Assembly (NCBI RefSeq): GCF_016406125.1
Contig: NZ_CP066339.1
Coordinates: forward strand, 372,001 to 436,000
DNA: 64,000 nt
From: Alicyclobacillus sp. SO9
GTDB taxonomy: Bacteria; Bacillota; Bacilli; Alicyclobacillales; Alicyclobacillaceae
Direction: 5' to 3'
Made by a program: the position numbers and the translations under genes. Under the pieces are notes generated by a model. The model was not told the origin of the DNA, ran no database searches, and saw only the letters and a program-made list of their open reading frames with translations. Below, piece by piece: positions 32,995-56,426 of this stretch. Position 1 is the first letter of the stretch. Each line of letters starts with the position of its first letter.

Positions 32995-33123
32995 GAATGA
33001 CGGCTTTGGGGGGCGAATTGTGAGACATGACAGTGTGCCTACTGTGGTGCGACACAGTGAGGCTGTCCCGAAGTAAAGGAAATAGAGTGGAGAAGTGAGT
33101 AGTGAGTGGGGTGCAGGTGAGTA

Positions 33124-34330
33124 GCGCGGGCCCGGCGCTGGTAATGGAGTGGAGGATAAGCGTTTGAGAAACGCTTATCTTCAACATTTGGGGGTTGAAG
33201 GAGCGAATAGAGATCCGAGAGGAGCTTATCGGCGGTCCAGGGGTGCGAAAGAGGGGTGTTGGAGCCGGATAAGCATTCGAGAAGAGATTAATCTGGCGAA
33301 TTTCGGTGCAAATGGTGAAATAGCGATCCGGGAGGAGCCTATCGGCGGCTGGGCTGAGGCTGAGGCTGAGGCTGGACTGCGGCTGGAGCGGCGAGTGCGG
33401 GGGTGCAGGTGAGTGGCGCGGGCCCGGCGCTGGTAATGGAGTGGAGGATAAGCGTTTGAGAAACGCTTATCTTCAACATTTGGGGGTTGAAGGAGCGAAT
33501 AGCGATCCGAGAAGAGCTTATCGACGGTCCAGGGGTGCGGAAGAGGGGTGTTGGGGCCGGATAAGCATTCGAGAAGAGCTTAATTTGGCGAATTTCGGTG
33601 CAAATGGTGAAATAGCGATCCGGGAGGAGCTTATCGGCGGCTGGACTGCGGCTGGAGCGGCGAGTGCGGGGGTGCAGGTGAGTGGCGCGGGCGTAGGTGA
33701 GTGGCGCGGGCCCGGCGCTGGTAATGGAGTGGAGGATAAGCGTTTGAGAAACGCTTATCTTCAACATTTGGGGGTTGAAGGAGCGAATAGCGATCCGAGA
33801 AGAGCTTATCGACGGTCCAGGGGTGCGGAAGAGGGGTGTTGGGGCCGGATAAGCATTCGAGAAGAGCTTAATTTGGCGAATTTCGGTGCAAATGGTGAAA
33901 TAGCGATCCGGGAGGAGCTTATCTGCGGCTGGGCAGAGGCTGGGCTGCGCCCGGAGCGGCGAGTGCGGGGGTGCAGGTGAGTAGCGCGGGCCCGGCGCTG
34001 GTAATGGAGTGGAGGATAAGCGTTTGAGAAACGCTTATCTTCAACATTTGGGGGTTGAAGGAGGGAATAGCGATCCGAGAAGAGCTTATCGGCGGTCCGT
34101 GGGTGCGGAAGAGGGGTGTTGGGGCCGGATAAGCATTCGAGAGGAGCTTAATTCGGCGAATTTCGGTGCAAATGGTGAAATAGCGATCCGAGAAGAGCTT
34201 ATCGGCGGTCCAGGGGTGCGAAAGAGGGGTGTTGGAGCCGGATAAGCATTCGAGAAGAGCTTAATTTGGCGAATTTCGGTGCAAATGGTGAAATAGCGAT
34301 CCGAGAGGAGCTTATCGGCGGCTGGGCTGA
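33124..34330. repeat. Four tandem copies of a 280-290 bp GC-rich repeat
   Basis: Copies begin at about 33124, 33416, 33704 and 33984 (at a shared GCGCGGGCCCGGCGCTGG), and the fourth has its second half repeated (about 34189-34330). Each copy carries a perfect 25-bp palindrome with arms GATAAGCGTTT (33155-33179, 33447-33471, 33735-33759, 34015-34039) and further elements in which AATAGCGATCCGAG leads to GCTTATC. Open frames run through the copies on both strands but follow the repeat, not a protein family, so I treat the block as non-coding. Confidence 0.85.
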
Positions 34331-42170: not shown

Positions 42171-42222
42171 CTGCCAGCCGAACTATGGGGCGGCCATAGG
42201 ATGTTAGGTTAGGTTACGTTCA

Positions 42223-42442
42223 GAAGGATGGAAGTTCGGAAGGATGGAAGTTCGGAAGGATGGAAGTTCGGAAGGATGGAAGTTCGGAAGGATGGAAGTT
42301 CGGAAGGATGGAAGTTCGGAAGGATGGAAGTTCGGAAGGATGGAAGTTCGGAAGGATGGAAGTTCGGAAGGATGGAAGTTCGGAAGGATGGAAGTTCGGA
42401 AGGATGGAAGTTCGGAAGGATGGAAGTTCGGAAGGATGGAAG
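42223..42442. repeat. Tandem array of a 16-bp unit, about 13.7 copies
   Basis: The unit GAAGGATGGAAGTTCG repeats without visible error directly after the sigma-like gene. Because 16 is not a multiple of 3, all three forward frames are open and encode the same peptide shifted in phase; these frames have no ribosome site and are not genes. Confidence 0.92.
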
Positions 42443-43209: not shown

Positions 43210-43950
43210 TCACCATCTTCGACGGAAAATTTCTAAGCGAAAGCGACTGGGAAGGAAATAATCTTCAGAAATCAGAAGCGGAAATCCTTTCTGATTCAGA
43301 TGTACCTGATGAAGGTGCAACAACGCGGTTTCCGGAAGGACTTCGAGTTTTTCTGCAATGCCTTGCGACGGGTGTCCTACGTCAATTGACGTGTCAGCAG
43401 TCGTAACGATTTCACGAAACTTTGTCTCTAAATAGACAAAGAGAGATTCACCCATGTCGGCCTCATTTGCAGGCATATACTGAAGCGGCAAAATATCTAC
43501 ACAGTGCATTACTGGAACATCGTCCGCGGTACGAATACGGCGAATTACGCCTACTTCTTCCATATCCCAGTTCTTTAACAGCTCTTTTTCCTTGCGAGTG
43601 ATAGCACGCGTTGAAAATTCTACATTCTTTGTACCGGGTTTGTAGCCATGCTTTTCTATCCATTGCGTAACACTGACCAAGCTCTCAAGTCCGCCTTGGA
43701 TTCTGGTACTGACAAAAGTACCAACCCCTCGTCGTCTTTCCAAAACGCCGCGCTGTATTAAATACGAGACGGCTTCACGCAGTGTAGCCCTTGATATGCC
43801 GAACATTTCCGATAGTTCATCTTCGGACGGGATCTTTTCGCCAATGTCCCATTCCTTTGTCGAAAGTTTCTGCTGTATTTCTTCTATCACTTGTAAATAT
43901 AGCGGTTCTCTATGCCCAAGCACCGAATACACTGCCTCATTTCTCAACAA
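43210..43950 (-). CDS. GntR-family regulator with UTRA domain (HutC subfamily)
   Basis: About 246 residues. The winged helix is clear (EPLYLQVIEEIQQKL, then KIPSEDELSEMFGISRATLR and LERRRGVGTFV), followed by a UTRA ligand-binding domain (about 95-246) with ERL-type strands and a LISEDYFLPSRF end. TTG 43950 is chosen because AAAGAGG lies 8 nt upstream; ATG 44004 has no ribosome site. It stands isolated between repeat blocks, so its target is likely elsewhere or in the hut cluster 4 kb away. Confidence 0.8.
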   Translation of the reverse strand: MLRNEAVYSVLGHREPLYLQVIEEIQQKLSTKEWDIGEKIPSEDELSEMFGISRATLREAVSYLIQRGVLERRRGVGTFVSTRIQGGLESLVSVTQWIEKHGYKPGTKNVEFSTRAITRKEKELLKNWDMEEVGVIRRIRTADDVPVMHCVDILPLQYMPANEADMGESLFVYLETKFREIVTTADTSIDVGHPSQGIAEKLEVLPETALLHLHQVHLNQKGFPLLISEDYFLPSRFRLEIFRRRW

Positions 43951-44075
43951 AGTGGAATCCTCTTTATATTGGCTCAAATTCAGCCGGGAATCAATCAGAG
44001 ACATAAATTAATGACTAGTCCACTCCGTGATCAGCTCAATCGTTGGCTCTGTGCCCGACGGTCAAGCTATTGGGA

Positions 44076-45078: not shown

Positions 45079-45160
45079 GCGTGGCTTCAGGGACAATGAA
45101 CGAAAATGTGCGAAGGGAGGAAGCGAAGGGAGGAAGCGAAGGGAGGAAGAATTCAGTTCC

Positions 45161-46106
45161 GCCCACATCACACCCCTCCGTTCACAAATCCGCCATAAAT
45201 TAGTATCTGCCGTGGTTCGGATGTGACGAAAATGTGACGGTGGGTGGTCCTCGGGAGCTGATCAGCAGAAATAGCGATCCCCGAGACGCTTATCTGGCAT
45301 TGAGGCTACACGTACACACAAATAAGCTCCTGCAAAGTGCTTAAGCACCCGAATGGCCCGGGGATCTGATGGCTGCCTTAGGAATAAGCTTGTCTCGCGC
45401 GCTTATTTTGATGGCGGGGACCTGATTTCAGGCAATAAGCGCTTCTCGGATCTCTATTGTCCACGCCCCGCCCACATCACACCCCTCCGTTCACAAATCC
45501 GCCATAAATTAGTATCTGAAGTGGTTCGGATGTGACGACAATGTGACGGTGGGTGGTCCTCGGGAGCTGATCAGTAGAAATAGCGATCCCCGAGACGCTT
45601 ATATGGCATTGAGGCTACACGTACACACAAATAAGCTCCTGAGAAGTGCTTAAGCACCCAAATGGCCCCGGGATCCGATGGCTGCCTTAGGAATAAGCTT
45701 GTCTCGCGCGCTTATTTTGATGGTGGGGACCTGATTTCAGGCAATAAGCGCTTCTCGGATCTCTATTGTCGAGGCCCCGCCCACATCACACCCCTCCGTT
45801 CACAAATCCGCCATAAATTAGTATCTGAAGTGGTTCGGATGTGACGAAAATGTGACGGTGGGTGGTCCCCGGGAGCTGATCAGCAGAAATAGCGATCCAC
45901 GAGACGCTTATATGGCATTGAGGCGACACGCACACACAAATAAGCTCCTGCGAAGTGCTTAAGCACCCGAATGGCCCTGGGATCCGATGGCTGCCTTGGG
46001 AATAAGCTTGTCTCGCGCGCTTATTTTGATGGCGGGGACCTGATTTCAGGCAATAAGCGCTTCTCGGATCTCTATTGGCTCAGCCTCGCCCGCATCACAC
46101 CCCTCT
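45161..46106. repeat. Three tandem copies of a 309-bp repeat plus a partial fourth
   Basis: Copies start at 45161, 45470 and 45779, and a fourth begins at 46088 and breaks off after about 19 bp. They are nearly identical. Each contains AATAGCGATCC...GCTTAT, AATAAGCTCCTG...AAGTGCTTAAGCACC, AATAAGCTTG...GCGCTTATT and AATAAGCGCTTCTCGGATC, i.e. the same AATAAGC/GGATC elements seen at 33-34 kb. The period is 103 codons, so a 60-codon frame recurs in each copy; it has no ribosome site and is not taken as a gene. Confidence 0.92.
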
Positions 46107-47086: not shown

Positions 47087-47148
47087 TACCTCTAATTATG
47101 TCCCGGGCTGAACAAATGTCGCCGGTTCTAAAAGTGTCAACGTATCCC

Positions 47149-47376
47149 GGGCTCCGAACGTCTCACCTGGGCTCGCAATTGAGCCCGGGCAGCGCCGGTG
47201 TAGCCGGGCTCCGAACGTCTCACCTGGGTCCGCAACTGAGCCCGGGCAGCGCCGGTGTAGCCGGGCTCCGAACGTCTCACCTGGGTCCGCAACTGAGCCC
47301 GGGCAGCGCCGGTGTAGCCGGGCTCCGAACGTCTCACCTGGGTCCGCAATTGAGCCCGGGCAGCGCCCAGCGGGGC
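47149..47376. repeat. Four tandem copies of a 57-bp GC-rich unit
   Basis: The unit runs from GGGCTCCGAACGTCTCACC through GAGCCCGGGCAGCGCCGG to GTAGCC. It starts at 47149, 47206, 47263 and 47320, with the fourth ending differently. The period is a multiple of 3, so frames stay open on both strands. It lies between the orphan gene and the hutG end and may affect the end of the hut transcript. Confidence 0.88.
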
Positions 47377-47414: not shown

Positions 47415-48470
47415 TTACGGTTGGCGAAGTGCGAGGCCGGTCAAGAAGGAGAGGACCAAGGTGCTTGCAACCCGGGTTGTCAAATCGCGAAAGTCTTGAT
47501 TTGGATCTGCGCAGACCACATCCATAGCTTCTACATTTGATTGCTGACCGAGCCACTCCAGTGTTTCAATGGTTTCCCAGATATCCAGGCCGCCTGGGCT
47601 GGGGGCGGGTACGCCTGGAACAAAGCTCTGATCGAGCACGTCCATATCAAAGCTGACATACACCGCATCGGTACCTTTACTGGCTATGTCAAAACTCTGC
47701 TGGACCAATTCAAGCAGGCCTTGCTTGCGTACATCGCGTGCGGTGTAGACAGTGGCACCGTGATGGAGGACATATTCGTGGTAGGCCTGTGCATTGGTAA
47801 AATCACGGAGTCCAATTTGAACCAGTTTGTGCCCGTCAATGGCTTCACTTTCAAGCAGAGTTCGGAAGGGTGTCCCGTTGGTCCGTCCGCCGTCTTCCAG
47901 GTTTCGAACGTCGTGGTGCGCATCAAAGTGGACAATTCCACAGCTCAGGCCGGTGGCTTCCGTCATGCCGAGGATGGAGGCGCCTGTGATGGAGTGATCA
48001 CCGCCCAGCAGCACGAGGGGTTTTCGATGCTGCTGCCAATAGGACTTTGCAGCTGCCTCAATATTTTGTTGGCAAAGCCCCAAGTCAGTCTTGTGCATCT
48101 GGACATTGCCGATGTCGACCACGCGGAGTCGGTCTGCCAGGTTGAGGCGGTGGTGCACACTGTACGGCGTAAACGCCTGGAATGACTTGCGGATTGCATC
48201 TGGGAGCTGAAAGGCTGCTGAGTGACTGATGGACGTCTTGCTCAGCGGGGCTCCCAGCAAAGCCGCATCAAATTCCGCCGGACCTTCATCCGCGTGACCC
48301 GCGTGACCCGCGTGACCCATGTGATCCGTGTGAGCCGTGTGACCGGTCTGACTCGTACCGTTGGTACCGCCACCGCCATAGGCCTGTATCCAATCTGCCA
48401 CTTTGGGATCATATTTATCGCGAAAACGGCTTCCTGCCTTTTCTGTATTGTCGATCACGCTTCTACTCAC
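47415..48470 (-). CDS. hutG: Formimidoylglutamase (arginase family)
   Basis: HutG hydrolyses N-formimino-glutamate to glutamate and formamide, the last step of one histidine route. The 351-residue protein has the manganese motifs of ureohydrolases: LGGDHS, HFDAHHDVR and SFDMDVLD. Unusually, residues 40-60 hold a His/Gly-rich insert (TGHTAHTDHMGHAGHAGHAD) made by a short DNA repeat. GTG 48470 follows AGGAAGGAT. It lies 26 bp after hutI in the operon. Confidence 0.9.
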   Translation of the reverse strand: MSRSVIDNTEKAGSRFRDKYDPKVADWIQAYGGGGTNGTSQTGHTAHTDHMGHAGHAGHADEGPAEFDAALLGAPLSKTSISHSAAFQLPDAIRKSFQAFTPYSVHHRLNLADRLRVVDIGNVQMHKTDLGLCQQNIEAAAKSYWQQHRKPLVLLGGDHSITGASILGMTEATGLSCGIVHFDAHHDVRNLEDGGRTNGTPFRTLLESEAIDGHKLVQIGLRDFTNAQAYHEYVLHHGATVYTARDVRKQGLLELVQQSFDIASKGTDAVYVSFDMDVLDQSFVPGVPAPSPGGLDIWETIETLEWLGQQSNVEAMDVVCADPNQDFRDLTTRVASTLVLSFLTGLALRQP

Positions 48471-48496: not shown

Positions 48497-49918
48497 CTAG
48501 TCGGTAATGGGCTTTCCGCCTGAGACCACTTTGCGTCCTTTCTTGAACACGCAGTCAACATGGTTGATGCCGAAGTGGTAGGGGATATAGGCTACATCAT
48601 CTGTATTAAACAGGCACAAGTCTGCTTGTTTACCGACTTCTATGGTACCAATGCGATGGCCGCGGCCGATGGCATAGGCAGCATTCCGCGTTACTGCGGT
48701 CAAAATTTCCTCAGGTGTCATGCCCAACAGGTTGGCACCAAAGGCCATAATCAGTTGCAGGGACTCGGTCGGGCAACTGCCTGGGTTGTAGTCTGTTGCC
48801 AGTGCCACAGCGCCGTTGGCTTCGTCAATCAAGTAACGGGCGTCGGCGTGTTTGGGTGACCTTAGGTTCCAGGATGTGCCGGGTAGAATCACCGCGATGG
48901 TTCCAGACTTGGCAATGTCCTGCAGACCTTCTTTAGATGCAGCCAGCAGGTGCTCAACGGAAGTCGCCCCGAGTTCTGCAGCCAATTCTGTACCGCCTAA
49001 GGGTTCAATTTCGTCTGCGTGAATTTTGATGTCGAAGCCCTTGTTTTTGCAGGCAGCGAGAAAACGACGACTCTGCTCCACGGAGAATACGCCAGATTCG
49101 CAGAAGATATCGCAGAACTCAGCCAGTTTTTCTTCCTTAATTTCATCCAGCATTTCAATCATCAAGTCGAGAAATTCATCCGGGTGAGACCTGTATTCCG
49201 GCGGCAGTGCATGCGGCCCGAGAAAGGTGGAAACGACTTCAACGGGTTGGAGGTCGTTCAACTTGTTGGCAACTTTCAATTGCTTTAGTTCTGTCTCTCG
49301 CTCCAAACCGTAGCCGCTTTTGGCTTCCACTGTTGTTGTTCCCTGCTCCAGCATGGTGTGTAAAGACTGCAGGGCTTGCGCTTCCAGTTCCTCTTCGCTG
49401 GCAGCCCGGGTGGACTTCACGGTGGATAGAATTCCGCCGCCTTGTTCGAGAATCTCCAAATAGCTCTTGCCGGCTAGTTTCATGGCTAGTTCTTGTTGGC
49501 GGGATCCGCCGTGGACAAGGTGTGTATGCGGATCAATCAGGCCAGGCGTCAAAAGACGCCCGCCTGCATCCAGGGTTTCATGTGCTGAGATGTCTGCGCG
49601 CTCAAACTCATGTGCCGTTCCGACGAAAACAATGTCTTCGCCGCGGATGCCTACAACACCGTCTTCAATCAGGCCAATGTCGCGCATCTCGCTCCCGCGC
49701 TTCGGCCCGCTGGTCAGCCCTTCGCCAGGCTGGACGTTCGCTTCGCCGGCACCGTTCCCCAGTTCGGGAGTCTGGCCGTCGGTTGGTGCAGCAGCAGGCG
49801 ATCCGCTGCCATCCCTGCTGGTCAGCCCTTCGCCTGCTCCAGCGGATGCACCCGTGCCGACCGGCGAACTCAGCGTTGCGACTTTTGCGTTCTTGATAAT
49901 CAAATCAACCTTTGTCAC
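48497..49918 (-). CDS. hutI: Imidazolonepropionase
   Basis: HutI opens the imidazolone ring to give N-formimino-glutamate. It has the amidohydrolase motif [10 protein letters not shown], then [52 protein letters not shown] and [15 protein letters not shown]. At 473 residues it is about 60 longer than usual: near residue 20 a G/A/P/S-rich insert repeats GEGLTS twice. GTG 49918 follows AGGAGGGG and overlaps the hutU end by 14 bp. Confidence 0.93.
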
Positions 49919-51584
49919 TGGACCCCTCCTGTGCTCTCCACATGGGAATGTAAATATCTTTCTCCTTGGCCACTTCAATGGCTTTTGGGTAGCCTGCGTC
50001 CACGTGGCGCATGACGCCTGTGCCAGGGTCTGATGTCAGCACCCGTTCCAGCTTCCGTGCTGCTCTATCTGTGCCGTCTGCCACAACCACCATGCCTGCG
50101 TGAATGGCGTAGCCCATGCCGACGCCGCCGCCGTGGTGGACCGAGATCCAACTGCCGCCTGCAGCCGTGTTGATGAGGGCGTTCAAAATCGGCCAGTCTG
50201 CCACGGCGTCGCTGCCGTCCCGCATGCTTTCGGTTTCGCGGTTGGGGCTGGCGACGGAGCCTGCGTCCAGGTGATCACGTCCAATCACAATAGGCCCGGA
50301 CAACTCCCCGCTTCTCACCATCTCATTGAGGGCCAAGCCAAATTTCGCCCGTGCACCGTAACCGAGCCAGCAGATACGGGCAGGCAGTCCTTGGAATGAG
50401 ACCTTTTCCTGTGCCATTTGGATCCAGCGGTTCAGGTGCTCATCTTCAGGGAACAGCTTTTGAATCAAAGCGTCCGTTTTATAGATGTCTTCGGGGTCTC
50501 CGGATAATGCGGCCCAGCGGAAGGGCCCTTTGCCTTCGCAGAACAACTCGCGGATATAGGCGGGAACGAAGCCGGGGAAGCGGAATGCGTCTTTCAGACC
50601 TCTGTTGTATGCCACCTGGCGGATGTTGTTGCCGTAGTCGAACACGGTGGAACCGAGATCGATTAAATCAAGCATGGCTTGCACATGGGTCACAATGCTT
50701 TGCTCTGCCCGCTCCAGATAGTCGTCTGGGTCGGACTGGCGCAGCTTCTCTGCATCATCTACATTGAGGCCCACAGGGACGTAGCCGTTGAGAGGGTCGT
50801 GAGCGGATGTCTGGTCTGTCACAAAGTCCGGGACAAACTTGCGTTTCACTACTTCTGGTACAATCTCCGCTGCATTGCCCAAGAGTGCGATGGACAAGGG
50901 GCGTTTCTCCTCCTTGGCTTTCATCGCCATGTCGATGGCTTCGTCCAAAGTTTTGGCCATGACGTCGCAATACTTCGTTTCCAGTCTGCGCTGTACCCGA
51001 TGCTCATCTACTTCAATGACAATGGCAACGCCGCCGTTCATGGTGACAGCCAACGGTTGTGCACCGCCCATGCCGCCGAGGCCTGCAGTCAAGGTGATGG
51101 TGCCCGCCATACTCTCAAGGCCCTTCTGCCGTGCTGCTTCCGCAAAGGTCTCATAGGTGCCTTGGAGGATGCCTTGGGAGCCGATGTAAATCCACGATCC
51201 CGCGGTCATTTGACCAAACATCATCAGGCCCTTTTTCTCGAGTTCACGAAAGTGATCCCAATTAGCCCACGCCGGTACCAGCATAGAGTTGGATAAGAGA
51301 ACCCGGGGTGCATCTTCATGTGTGCGGAACTTGCCAACGGGTTTTCCCGATTGAATTAGCAGTGTTTCGTCGTTCTCCAGTTCCTTCAGGCTGTGCACAA
51401 TGGCGTCGTAGCTGTCCCAGTTGCGGGCAGCTTTTCCGATACCGCCGTACACCACCAGGTCTTGCGGGCGTTCTCCGACCGCCGGGTCGAGATTGTTCAT
51501 CAGCATTCGCAGTGCAGCCTCCTGCTCCCAGCCCTTGCAGTGAAGGGTGGAACCGTGGGGGGCGTGAATTGGTGCTCTCGTCAT
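49905..51584 (-). CDS. hutU: Urocanate hydratase (canonical)
   Basis: HutU adds water to urocanate with tightly bound NAD. The 559-residue protein has the NAD loop [49 protein letters not shown], and the active-site cysteine at residue 405 in [12 protein letters not shown], then [20 protein letters not shown] 51584 lies 8 nt after AGGAGG; a longer frame to 51659 has no site. First gene of the hutU-hutI-hutG operon. hutH is not in this window. Confidence 0.95.
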
Positions 51585-51785
51585 GTACTTTTCCTCCTGA
51601 CATAGCGAATGAAAGCGCTTAGTTTGCGTCCGAAAAAAGACCATTTTTGTGCCTGTCAAAGAGGCAAGGCGCAGTAGACTTCTCGCCTCTTCTCGGGGAA
51701 CCTCTACGACTTATACTGTAAAGCAGTTGCAAACTGATGTAACTAGAATCGTTTGCGGTGTGTCTAAACAATATTGCTGTCGAAG

Positions 51786-52937
51786 TCAAAGCAGTCTTCG
51801 GAACTCGCTGGGCGACTTGCCAAAGTATGTACGAAAGGTCTTGCTAAAGTAGTTTGGATCCTGAAAGCCCACCTGATACGCGATATTGGCAACTGTCTGA
51901 CCGGAATCGCCAAGCAGCCACAGAGCACGTTCCATGCGGGCTTTACGAACAAAGGCGGTGACGGTGCTGCCGGTTTCCTTGCGAAACAGATGACTCAGGT
52001 AGTAGTGGCTGACAGAGCAGTGCCTTGCAATGTTCTCAAGGGACAACTCTTCGTGCAGATGGCTGACAATGTATTGTATCGATTTTTCAATCACCGCCGA
52101 TCTCGTTTGGTCCACCAACTCAGCCACCCGCTCGAGGAATGTGAAGCCGCTGGTCTCTATCCACAGTGACAGCTTCTGTGGACTGTTTACTTCAAGCAGA
52201 CTCTGAAACAGGGACGTGTTGTGCAGCAATTCGTCGTCAGCGGGGAGCCCCTGTTCTCGACAGTTGTTTAAGAGCTGGACAAGGCTGTCCAGAACCTCCC
52301 GTTTGCGGTTGTCCAACGCTTCTGATTCACGGGTTTGGACTGCTGCAAGCGTACGCTGGACAGAGGCGATGGCCGTTTCCAGGTTGTCTTCTTCTGCGGC
52401 AGTGATTGGCTTGTCTGAGGAACTCAACTCCATATCGTCCGAATGGGCCAGTTTGGTGGCTTGCTTGGCTGCATACAGTGCGGCGGCTCGGGCCTTGCGG
52501 ACGGCACTGGTCAAGAGCGCTGGAGTGTCAATCACCGGTGATGTACCAATGGAAAGCTGCGCATCCTGTAACACGGTAGCTGTTTGGAGCAGTTTTTTCG
52601 CTGTCTCTTCAACCTGCGTCTTATCCAGCTCATAGGAAACCGACAGCAGAATAATGCACTCGTTCTGTTCATGCCAGTTCAGCAGCAGCGACCTCCAAGC
52701 AGACTTGACAGCCTGTGTTAGTTCTTGGCGCAGTTCGTACTGCTGTCTGTCACTGATCCAAAGTCCAGTGTCTGTCGGGAATTCATAGCGCAGCGATAAA
52801 GCCAGGTTCGGCGGCGCTTTCCAGGACAGGGCCTTCATCCAGGACCAGAATTCCATGGGACTTTGCAAATTGCCTACGGTGATGTTGTGAACAAAAACCT
52901 GCTCGAGCATGTCTTGGGTCAGTGTGCCCTCACTCAT
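51786..52937 (-). CDS. AraC-family regulator with GGDEF-like sensor region
   Basis: A 383-residue regulator. The last 100 residues hold two AraC helix-turn-helices (LENIARHCSVSHYYLSHLF, then VANIAYQVGFQDPNYFSKTF). Residues 95-165 resemble the degenerate GGDEF-like region of YesN-type regulators (LSIGTSPVIDTPALLTSAVR), and a long helix follows. There is no receiver domain. The start overlaps the end of the second hutU by 8 bp, so it is translated with it and probably controls it, the hut operon or the divergent permease. Confidence 0.85.
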   Translation of the reverse strand: MSEGTLTQDMLEQVFVHNITVGNLQSPMEFWSWMKALSWKAPPNLALSLRYEFPTDTGLWISDRQQYELRQELTQAVKSAWRSLLLNWHEQNECIILLSVSYELDKTQVEETAKKLLQTATVLQDAQLSIGTSPVIDTPALLTSAVRKARAAALYAAKQATKLAHSDDMELSSSDKPITAAEEDNLETAIASVQRTLAAVQTRESEALDNRKREVLDSLVQLLNNCREQGLPADDELLHNTSLFQSLLEVNSPQKLSLWIETSGFTFLERVAELVDQTRSAVIEKSIQYIVSHLHEELSLENIARHCSVSHYYLSHLFRKETGSTVTAFVRKARMERALWLLGDSGQTVANIAYQVGFQDPNYFSKTFRTYFGKSPSEFRRLL

Positions 52938-54696
52938 CGGCAGCCCGCCTCGGTGTTCGCGCTGCGGCTTGGCCGTCTACCTGTTTGTCGGCCTGCTCGT
53001 TATCCTGCCTGTCCGCTTTCCTGTCCACTTGCCTGTCTGCGGTCCTGTCTGCTTGCTCGTTAGCCTGTTTGTTTCCTGGATGGAATGTCGCTGCAGTCTG
53101 TTTTGCTTTCGGGTAGCCAGCGTTGGCATAGCGAAGGACACCGAGTTGTGACTCATTCAACAAGACCCGCCTCACTTTGTTGCCGTTGCCTGGACTTCCA
53201 TCCAGAATCACGGTGGTTCCGGCGTGAATGGAGTACCCGATACCGACACCTCCGCCTTGCTGTACAGACACCAATGACGCGCCCGTACTTGCCATCAGGA
53301 GAGCGTTCAAAATCGGCCAGTCGGCGACCGCGTCGGATCCATCCAGCATCTGCTCCGTTTCGCGGTGGGGGGAGGCCATGGTTGCTCCAGCAAAGTGATC
53401 GCGAGTAATCGCCACAGGCCCCTTCAGTCCTCCCGCTTCCACAACCCGAACCAGTGCATCGATGAAGAGTTGACGCTCGTCATAAGTGAGCCATACGGAA
53501 CGGGCTGGCAGACCCTGGAAGTGAACGCGGTGTTCTGCATAGCGAATCCACGTCACCAAGCGCGTGTCATCCGGGAACGCTTTTAGCAGCCAGTCGTCAA
53601 TGGCGTAGATGTCTTCCGGATTACCGGATAGTGCAATGAAGCGAAGGGACTCGGTTCCTGCCGTCAACCTGTCTCTCGCAAACAGAGTAACAAAGGAAGG
53701 GATGGTCATGGCTTCTGGCAACTCAGGTTCAGCTTGTCCGCGCAGGTGATTTCCGTATTCAAACACGACCGATCCCGCTCTTCGAAACAGCAACATCGCC
53801 CCCACATGGCTGACAATGCTGTTTTTGGCCGACTTAATGTACTCATTGGGGTGTTCTACCCGCATCGCCCGAATTTCGCCAGCCTCTAGACCTGCGGGGA
53901 CATATCCGTTCAACAAATCATGCGCAGCCGTCTGGTCCGTCACAACATCCGGCACAATCCCCTGGGAAAGTACAAACTCGTATACTTCCACCGCATTTCC
54001 GACCAGACCAATGGTCCGCGCAATGCCCTGTGCAACTGCTTCATTTGCAAGGCGGAGAGCATCCATTGCGCTGTCTGTGGCAAAGTGAATAAAGTTGGTT
54101 TCCAGACGTTTCATCACTTTATCCCTGTCCACTTCCACAATAATAGCCACACCGCCGTTCATCTCAACGGCCAGCGGTTGCGCAGATCCCATCCCGCCAA
54201 GTCCGCTGCTCAGGACCAGCTTTCCTTTTAGTGTGCCGGCAAAGTGAGTATTCGCAATCTCCCACAGCGTTTCAAAGGTGGCTTGCAGGATTCCCTGTGC
54301 ACCAATGTATGCCCACGAAGAAGCCGTGGATTGTCCAAACAAAGTCAGGTTCTTCTGTTCCAGTTCACGAAAGTGACTCCAATTGGCCCAATTGGGCACC
54401 AGCATAGCGGTCGACATCACCACTCGCGGTGCGTCCTGATGCGTTCGGAAGACACCAACAGGCTTACCGGACTGAACCAGCAGTGTTTCATCATCTTCCA
54501 AGTTCTCAAGGGACTGTTTGATTGCCGCCAATGCATCGAAGTCCCGGACAGCCTTACCTCTCCCGTAGACAATCAGTTCATATGGATTTTCGGCCACATC
54601 GGGGGCCAGAACGTTCTCCAGAAGGCGATAGATTCCTTCTTGCTGCCAACCTTTGCAGTGCATTGTGGCCAGAACTTTTGCTGAAAGCACGTACAT
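52930..54696 (-). CDS. Divergent urocanate hydratase paralogue lacking the active-site Cys
   Basis: A 588-residue protein alignable with HutU along its length ([54 protein letters not shown]). Key positions differ: ARICW becomes ARSVW, so the conserved Cys is Val401; the HH before GGGVG is QQ; and CEGKGPFRW is replaced by another sequence. The NAD loop is kept. This suggests a urocanate analogue as substrate, as in thiourocanate and S-methyl-thiourocanate hydratases. The last 45 residues are a Q/A/D/R/K-rich repeat tail. AAAGGAC precedes ATG 54696. Confidence 0.85.
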   Translation of the reverse strand: MYVLSAKVLATMHCKGWQQEGIYRLLENVLAPDVAENPYELIVYGRGKAVRDFDALAAIKQSLENLEDDETLLVQSGKPVGVFRTHQDAPRVVMSTAMLVPNWANWSHFRELEQKNLTLFGQSTASSWAYIGAQGILQATFETLWEIANTHFAGTLKGKLVLSSGLGGMGSAQPLAVEMNGGVAIIVEVDRDKVMKRLETNFIHFATDSAMDALRLANEAVAQGIARTIGLVGNAVEVYEFVLSQGIVPDVVTDQTAAHDLLNGYVPAGLEAGEIRAMRVEHPNEYIKSAKNSIVSHVGAMLLFRRAGSVVFEYGNHLRGQAEPELPEAMTIPSFVTLFARDRLTAGTESLRFIALSGNPEDIYAIDDWLLKAFPDDTRLVTWIRYAEHRVHFQGLPARSVWLTYDERQLFIDALVRVVEAGGLKGPVAITRDHFAGATMASPHRETEQMLDGSDAVADWPILNALLMASTGASLVSVQQGGGVGIGYSIHAGTTVILDGSPGNGNKVRRVLLNESQLGVLRYANAGYPKAKQTAATFHPGNKQANEQADRTADRQVDRKADRQDNEQADKQVDGQAAARTPRRAADE

Positions 54697-54852
54697 TCGT
54701 CCTTTCCGATTCCCGCGGATTGCCCGATTCGCTACTTTTACTATAGGGGTTTGCTATGAATTCTGACAACAACAAGATATTCCCGGTCGGGAGCAACTCT
54801 GTCCATGGTTATTTTGTTTGAATATTTGTAGTATTGAGCCAACCTGCCAAAG

Positions 54853-54908
54853 AGACAAGGATTGAGACCCGCAACAGACATGAACACAGGTATGTCTTGT
54901 GCTTGTCT
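54853..54908. other. Nested hairpin in the divergent hutU2-permease region
   Basis: AGACAAG (54853-54859) pairs with CTTGTCT (54902-54908), and inside it AGACAT (54876-54881) pairs with ATGTCT (54892-54897). There is no T-run. It may be an RNA control element or a protein site. No known riboswitch consensus was recognised in this 341-bp region. Confidence 0.35.
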
Positions 54909-55037
54909 TTAAGATGGGTGAAAAGGCTTTCTGTATTTCGAAAATTCAGTGTACCGGAAGGGGGGAGTTGCATGTGAACTGCAAGCCCGCTGTTGGGTCA
55001 TGAGATAACGATACCGAATGAAGCGGAGGGATAAGAC

Positions 55038-56426
55038 GTGCAGGTTGAAAACCACAGTATTGATTTTATACCAGAGGATGAGCGGCATGGTCACATTTCT
55101 AATTTGTTCACTGTGTGGTTTGCATCCAATATGCAAATTACACCGTTGGTTACAGGTGCTCTTGCCATTGTCCTGGGTCTGAATCTGGCATGGAGCGTGA
55201 TTGTCATTATCCTTGGAAACTTAATTGGCGGAATTTTTATGGCCTACCACTCTGCCCAAGGTCCTAAGCTTGGCATTCCACAGATGATTCAAAGCCGAGC
55301 ACAATTTGGCGTCATAGGGGCCATGATTCCCTTAATTATTGTAATTCTGATGTATGTGGGCTTTTTTGCATCCAGCGGTGTTCTTGGCGGCCAGGCCCTG
55401 TCAGGGTTGACAAACTCTCATTTGAATACTAACTGGGCAATTATCATTCTCAGTCTGTTGACTTTAATGATTACGATAGTCGGGTATGATTTAATTCACT
55501 CACTGGAGCGCTGGCTTTCTCTGATTTTTGCTATTGTATTCATTTTTGTCACTGTGAAGGCCTTCTCGCTGCCGCTCCCTGCCCACAGTTGGTCACTGGC
55601 TGGTCCAAAGTGGCCCATGGTGCTTTTGACACTTACAATCGTTGTAACGTGGCAAATTGCTTATGCACCCTATGTTGCTGATTATTCACGCTATATGAAA
55701 AAAGAGACTTCCGTCGGCAAAACTTTTATCTATACTTATGCAGGCTCAGTCGTCAGCAGCGCTTGGATGATGATTCTCGGCGTCGTGCTGACACTAGGCA
55801 TTCCCAAGTTTCTCGATAATTCCAGTGTGAATGTGGCTCATCTCCTAGGCAAAGGCGCAGGTTCCATCCTGATGTACGTAATTATTGTTCTCGGTATCAT
55901 CGCCGTGAACGTACTGAACTTGTACGGTGCGTTCATGTCCATGACAACGTGTACGCAGGCTGTCATCGATATCAAGATTACCCGCAACGTACGGTCTGGT
56001 TTTGTCATCATAATGGCTGTCGTCGCAACAGTTCTGGCAGTTTGGGGCGAAGGAAACTTCTTGACCAATTTCACAGATTTCATTTTGTTCCTGGCATACT
56101 TTCTGATTCCGTGGACTGCTATTAATCTGGTGGACTTCTACTTCGTCCGTCACGGAGAATACAGTATTGCGGATATCTTTAAACTGGATGGTATTTACGG
56201 GCGTTACAATTGGAGAACACTGACTGTCTATGCCATTGGGGTTTTAGTGGAAATTCCGTTTATGAATACAACGTTCTATACAGGTCATTTGGCTAAAGCC
56301 ATGGGAGGAGCAGACATTTCCTGGATTGTGGGTCTGGTAGTTTCGGCACCATTGTACTACATCGTGATGAAAGGTAAGGCGGAGAGAGAAGTCGTGCCCC
56401 TTTCGGAAAGCACGCTGCACAATTGA
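55038..56426 (+). CDS. NCS1-family permease (cytosine/purine/hydantoin type)
   Basis: A 462-residue, twelve-helix permease of the nucleobase:cation symporter-1 family. The start (FIPEDERHGHISNLFTVWFA) and helix 1-3 region (NMQITPLVTGALAIVLGL, GPKLGIPQMIQSRAQFG) are typical, and ADYSRYMKKETS lies in the middle loop. Substrates include cytosine, purines, allantoin and hydantoins. It is divergent from the atypical HutU, so an imidazole-type compound is a reasonable guess. GTG 55038 follows GGAGGG. Confidence 0.87.
   Translation: MQVENHSIDFIPEDERHGHISNLFTVWFASNMQITPLVTGALAIVLGLNLAWSVIVIILGNLIGGIFMAYHSAQGPKLGIPQMIQSRAQFGVIGAMIPLIIVILMYVGFFASSGVLGGQALSGLTNSHLNTNWAIIILSLLTLMITIVGYDLIHSLERWLSLIFAIVFIFVTVKAFSLPLPAHSWSLAGPKWPMVLLTLTIVVTWQIAYAPYVADYSRYMKKETSVGKTFIYTYAGSVVSSAWMMILGVVLTLGIPKFLDNSSVNVAHLLGKGAGSILMYVIIVLGIIAVNVLNLYGAFMSMTTCTQAVIDIKITRNVRSGFVIIMAVVATVLAVWGEGNFLTNFTDFILFLAYFLIPWTAINLVDFYFVRHGEYSIADIFKLDGIYGRYNWRTLTVYAIGVLVEIPFMNTTFYTGHLAKAMGGADISWIVGLVVSAPLYYIVMKGKAEREVVPLSESTLHN

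Follow-up and report, generated by a model that had tools for sequence, protein, structure and literature searches.

HutU2, a urocanase-like protein encoded beside an AraC-family regulator in several Bacillota, is a possible degenerate urocanase and co-regulator of the hut operon

Urocanate hydratase (HutU; EC 4.2.1.49; PDB 1uwk, 2fkn) is encoded in the window, i.e., the whole stretch of 64,000 nucleotides analyzed here, next to a second gene of the same family, designated HutU2, and the locus raises the question of whether the second product is another hydratase, and for which substrate, or has a different role. The genes follow each other on the minus strand in the order HutU2, AraC, HutU, HutI, and HutG (Table 1). 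The AraC start lies within the 3' end of HutU2 (8-bp overlap, ATGAGTGA), the longest HutU ORF starts 126 bp 3' of AraC, and the end of HutU is overlapped by the HutI ORF, which is followed after 26 bp by HutG. The only hutH copy of the genome is found at 1.70 Mb, 1.3 Mb from the locus; its local absence was considered as a sign of another substrate and rejected, given this distant copy and the presence of hutH inside the cluster of a same-family genome (G015). A GntR gene at 43210-44004 is unsupported as HutC (82 bits vs. 220), and promoter and terminator scans at the locus gave results at chance level. Tandem arrays are also present in the window, at 42218-42442 (16 bp x14), 45159-46105 (309 bp x3), 33108-34208 (~290 bp x4), and 47147-47367 (57 bp x4), the last one just beyond hutG.

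Table 1. Features of the HutU2 locus (window coordinates)
Feature	Position	Strand	Remark
HutG-type formimidoylglutamase	47415..48470	-	227.7 bits vs. cut-off 229.15
HutI (imidazolonepropionase)	48497..49978	-	
Canonical HutU (urocanate hydratase)	49905..51659	-	likely start at an internal ATG, giving Cys405
AraC-family regulator, 383 aa	51786..52937	-	degenerate GGDEF-like domain, helical linker, AraC HTH
HutU2 (urocanase-fold paralogue, 588 aa)	52930..54696	-	predicted degenerate urocanase / co-regulator
Codons Gln479-Gln480 (P. putida His488-His489)	53257..53262	-	
Codon Ala436 (P. putida Asp445)	53389..53391	-	Asp identical across active classes
Codon Val401 (P. putida Cys410)	53494..53496	-	
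Intergenic region HutU2/permease, 341 bp	54697..55037	.	presumed divergent promoter/operator
NCS1-family permease, divergent	55038..56426	+	predicted, likely hut-cluster importer

The HutU2 ORF is intact, its product contains the Urocanase_N, Urocanase, and Urocanase_C domains, and it shares 52% identity with the HutU of the window. With the NCBIfam hutU model TIGR01228 it scores 680 bits against a cut-off of 375, but this model also accepts thiourocanate hydratase (TUH; 726 bits) and therefore does not discriminate. The AlphaFold model (pLDDT 84) superimposes on the B. subtilis urocanase 2fkn with a TM-score of 0.92 (target length) at 50% identity, and is also close to the structures of TUH and of S-methylthiourocanate hydratase (SMTU). 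A K/Q/D-rich, repeat-like C-terminal helix (~residues 540-588; window 52930-53080) seems to be lacking in the orthologues. In three close pairs of HutU2-type genes, dN/dS is 0.06-0.08, i.e., these genes are maintained under strong purifying selection.

Regarding the active site, residue numbers and roles follow P. putida HutU (UniProt P25080); the correspondence was checked by residue pattern only, in that the known NAD and Cys positions matched the residues expected once the PDB chain index was shifted by one. The first-pass annotation had described a HutU paralogue with three substitutions, all of which are confirmed: Val401 at the position of the HutU cysteine (Cys405 when counted from the internal ATG), QQ (479-480) instead of the HH preceding GGGVG, and TAGTESLRF in place of CEGKGPFRW. 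Its statement that the NAD loop is kept holds for GLGGMG, but the second NAD loop is one residue short (YGGIG to YG-RG). One Q of the QQ pair corresponds to His488, which together with Asp445 (replaced by Ala) is common to all active classes, and compared with HutU, Arg201 is changed to Lys, Met131 to Ser, and Ile409 is also changed. Chance does not account for these changes: QQ is fixed among the close orthologues (5/5), and selection on the subfamily is purifying.

In the order survey of 59 genomes, four besides that of the window have clear orthologues (57-66% identity), and these four belong to the same family as the window. In a first tree, the nearest relatives of HutU2 were two proteins of other families, whose loci harbor a urocanase-like gene, AraC, a true urocanase, and HutI, as in the window. 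When 398 genomes from the phylum were searched with a seven-sequence profile, eight more HutU2-type proteins were obtained. No new top-scoring member emerged from a class-wide search of 399 genomes, and one scan of genome contigs gave ordinary HutUs only; however, screening the loci of the class-wide search for the paralogue residues revealed two more His488-less proteins in another family, for a total of 17. With the long urocanase as outgroup, 15 HutU2-type proteins form one clade (99/92; 100/99 once long-branch sequences are removed), with which the two late members group in a quick tree (SH-aLRT 98). This clade is placed outside HutU, as the first-pass annotation had anticipated for a distinct paralogue, and also outside the TUH/SMTU clade that it had wished to see compared, to which it is at best sister (98/97). 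As this sister relation rests on long branches, it is less sure than the monophyly of HutU2. Judging by these trees, HutU2 is a monophyletic, ancient, and distinct urocanase branch present in several Bacillota families.

Comparison across classes indicates which positions set this branch apart. While 82 positions are identical in HutU, long HutU, TUH, and SMTU, 51 of these are retained in 15/15 HutU2 proteins and four, namely Asn104, Gly179, Ile409, and His488, are lost in at least 13 of the 15. His488, retained by the four other classes, is Gln, Tyr, or Phe in 17/17. Further lesions differ between the two main branches: in that of the window, Cys410 is replaced by Val or Ala, Asp445 by Ala, and one residue is gone from the Gly52-Gly53 NAD loop, while in the other Cys410 and Asp445 are retained and Gly176 of an NAD loop is Glu, Val, Ser, or Ala. 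Gln130, Gln263, His267, Tyr322, Arg361, Asp442, His443, Arg454, Gly490, and Gly492 are invariant across HutU2. Thus HutU2 resembles HutU in fold, in most NAD residues, and in Arg361, Asp442-His443, and Arg454, and differs from it by the absence of His488, the changes at Arg201 and Ile409, its separate clade, and its constant position 5' of AraC, to which the branch of the window adds the lack of Cys410, Asp445, and one NAD-loop residue. The loss of Cys410, confined within HutU2 to the branch of the window, was rejected as proof of inactivity since TUH (PDB 7ned) and SMTU (PDB 8q9u/8q9v) also lack this residue; both retain His488 and Asp445, unlike the HutU2 of the window. In its RETE motif, 8q9u has an alanine, which was likewise dismissed as a natural change, the entry being an engineered R450A variant.

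HutU2 also has a constant neighbor. An AraC gene lies directly 3' on the same strand in 15/15 HutU2-type genes vs. 0/107 other urocanase-family genes (Fisher p 1.6e-19, relatedness ignored and with the loci fetched before the two late members were found). Those two members, which came to notice through their residues (His488 to Gln) rather than their neighbors, also have AraC directly 3' with a gap of ~37 bp, making 17/17, and since canonical HutU lies 5' of HutU2 in both, the pair is independent of a fixed HutU2-AraC-HutU block. Spacing ranges from overlap to 37 bp across the 17, the HutU2 stop and AraC start overlapping in the family of the window. Distances for HutU2 and AraC correlate closely (Mantel r 0.97), an agreement expected for any two co-inherited genes. 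A degenerate GGDEF-like domain, a helical linker, and an AraC HTH are modeled for the regulator, the GGDEF-like domain being found also in the partners from G747 and G206. Regulators of the YesN/AraC type that contain a GGDEF-like domain (PF17853, PF12833) share this architecture; the partner differs from them in coming after a urocanase-like gene at every locus seen here and in its degenerate GGDEF motif. In some hut operons, a related AraC is found 5' of HutU and HutU2 is absent, as in G002 (AraC-HutU-HutI-HutG-HutH), which implies that such an AraC can work alone.

The surroundings of the pair are far more diverse. In the five genomes of the same family, HutU2 is followed by AraC and other hut genes are nearby. 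NCS1 is divergent from HutU2 in 3/5 of them; G001 and G016 have another urocanase in the divergent position, and NCS1 comes after this gene. This urocanase, the only other one there (L034:10043-11872; L035:8971-10668), is a HutU variant with Cys410 changed to Ala and a long branch; Ala is found at the same position in G734 (L171). Over the whole set, the HutU2-AraC pair remains constant while the operon varies between HutG and FtcD, short and long HutU, and NCS1, Gate-type, or ABC transporters. Most members sit in ordinary hut operons, and neither a dedicated lyase nor a second HutI was seen with HutU2 in the loci examined. NCS1 adjoins HutU in G007, G018, and G054 without HutU2, G018 and G054 having NCS1-HutU-HutI-HutG and neither HutU2 nor its AraC, and the permease was thus rejected as evidence for a separate route. 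The first-pass annotation had taken the divergent NCS1 gene and an AraC gene proper to HutU2 as hints of a separate route for an imidazole compound. AraC did prove to be an invariant neighbor, but it belongs to the hut gene run: it overlaps HutU2 by its first bases and stands between HutU2 and HutU on the same strand, and hence is not set apart from the hut operon. With this shared operon, the absence of a dedicated lyase in the loci examined, and the same NCS1 beside HutU alone, the idea of a separate route is weakened, and the interpretation as a whole is only partly supported.

Several loci depart from the usual organization. In G660, the pair (L121:1124-7601) is found on a contig other than that of the hut operon, and is preceded there by genes for a DcuC-type permease and three molybdenum hydroxylase components (Fer2, FAD-binding, MoCo-binding). 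In G206 and G120 (L186:3920-11422; L187:138-7618), a family III CoA-transferase, an acyl-CoA dehydrogenase, an extra HutU, HutU2, and AraC form one run with an SSF symporter nearby and the HutI locus elsewhere; from this Pfam content, it may be speculated that the run would suit a route in which imidazolepropionate is turned into urocanate by way of CoA thioesters, with HutU acting next. The hut operon of G613 contains a third urocanase-type gene (L123:7756-9399) with His488 changed to Cys and other changes, which is not HutU2 by tree, and three urocanase-type genes are found also in G683 (L122).

On balance, we lean, with modest confidence, toward a regulatory role of HutU2: as a degenerate urocanase with urocanate as its ligand, it would control the hut operon jointly with AraC. 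Observations counted in favor of this reading are the AraC linkage, the monophyly, the loss of His488 with differing further lesions, the persistence of the pair, the Mantel correlation, the low dN/dS, and the stop/start overlap. With His488 lost and Arg361, Asp442, His443, and Arg454 retained, hydratase activity has probably been lost while the fold, most NAD-contacting residues, the substrate-site arginines, and the Asp-His pair have been kept. HutU2 would then most likely bind urocanate or a closely related compound (imidazolepropionate, for example), whether or not NAD is bound as well; the ligand-bound form may pass a signal to AraC by physical contact, and AraC would in turn activate both the hut operon and the divergent permease gene in the presence of substrate. 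Against the proposal, a related AraC occurs alone in some hut operons, most NAD and substrate residues are retained, and adjacency to a regulator can arise in an ordinary operon; the sister placement to two active modified-urocanate hydratases would also fit an enzyme.

An enzyme-derived co-regulator is already a known concept. In Lactococcus, the degenerate dihydroxyacetone kinase DhaQ co-activates, with DhaS, the operon of its own pathway, and HutU2 and AraC are proposed to act in a similar manner. In both cases, a paralogue of a pathway enzyme is encoded with the regulator of the pathway; the protein families are unrelated. DhaQ has been called the "DhaKLM operon coactivator" (PMC7911632). 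A literature search found no urocanase-derived co-regulator, an absence which is no proof.

Alternatively, HutU2 could be an enzyme that hydrates a modified or alternative urocanate, e.g., one that is N-methylated, cis-, or substituted in another way, with AraC simply controlling the operon. This reading is kept as a rival because HutU2 is the probable sister of the sulfur-urocanate hydratases and retains most substrate and NAD residues. Since TUH and SMTU are active without Cys410, its loss can accompany a bulkier ring, and the purifying selection and the one pair behind a molybdenum hydroxylase trio also agree with an enzyme. However, the His488 that four active classes retain is gone in all HutU2 proteins, as is Asp445 in the branch of the window, most members belong to plain hut operons with no dedicated lyase or second HutI seen, and the sister relation unites long branches. 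As for the thiourocanate or S-methylthiourocanate type of relative named in the first-pass annotation, HutU2 stays well under the corresponding models (583 vs. a cut-off of 930 for NF058530; 574 vs. 880 for NF058531). All things considered, such an enzyme is unlikely.

That HutU2 acts as a regulatory or helper subunit in mixed oligomers with true HutU is improbable. Precedents come from trypanosomes, where two reports describe catalytically dead paralogues in mixed oligomers, namely the AdoMetDC prozyme (PMC5201418) and deoxyhypusine synthase (PMC3663545), and the identical fold and the presence of HutU in the same operon in most cases would suit such a role. In the operons of G747, G785, and G496, however, the sole other urocanase is of the distant long type, and G660 has HutU on a different contig while the AraC neighbor is still there. 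Finally, HutU2 is very improbable as a further urocanase of the ordinary kind or as a duplicate in decay; the pass with the broad hutU model might speak for this, but the separate clade, the selection in the subfamily, and the clade-wide fixed changes at invariant sites contradict it.

Returning to HutU2 as a co-regulator, its extension beyond the window appears evenly poised: it may represent a Bacillota-wide, previously unrecognized subfamily of urocanase-like pseudoenzymes that sense urocanate or imidazole compounds for the adjacent AraC, as a two-gene module carried into different imidazole-catabolic clusters. As database models name such proteins urocanate hydratase, an additional enzyme enters metabolic reconstructions although the protein is probably a regulator. 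The residue set of His488, Asp445, and the Gly176 loop would help to separate the parts of urocanase needed for catalysis from those needed only for binding. If true, this would be a bacterial case of an enzyme fold put to new use in sensing the pathway from which it came, and the inducer, enzyme, look-alike, and regulator of the system are all small and open to testing.
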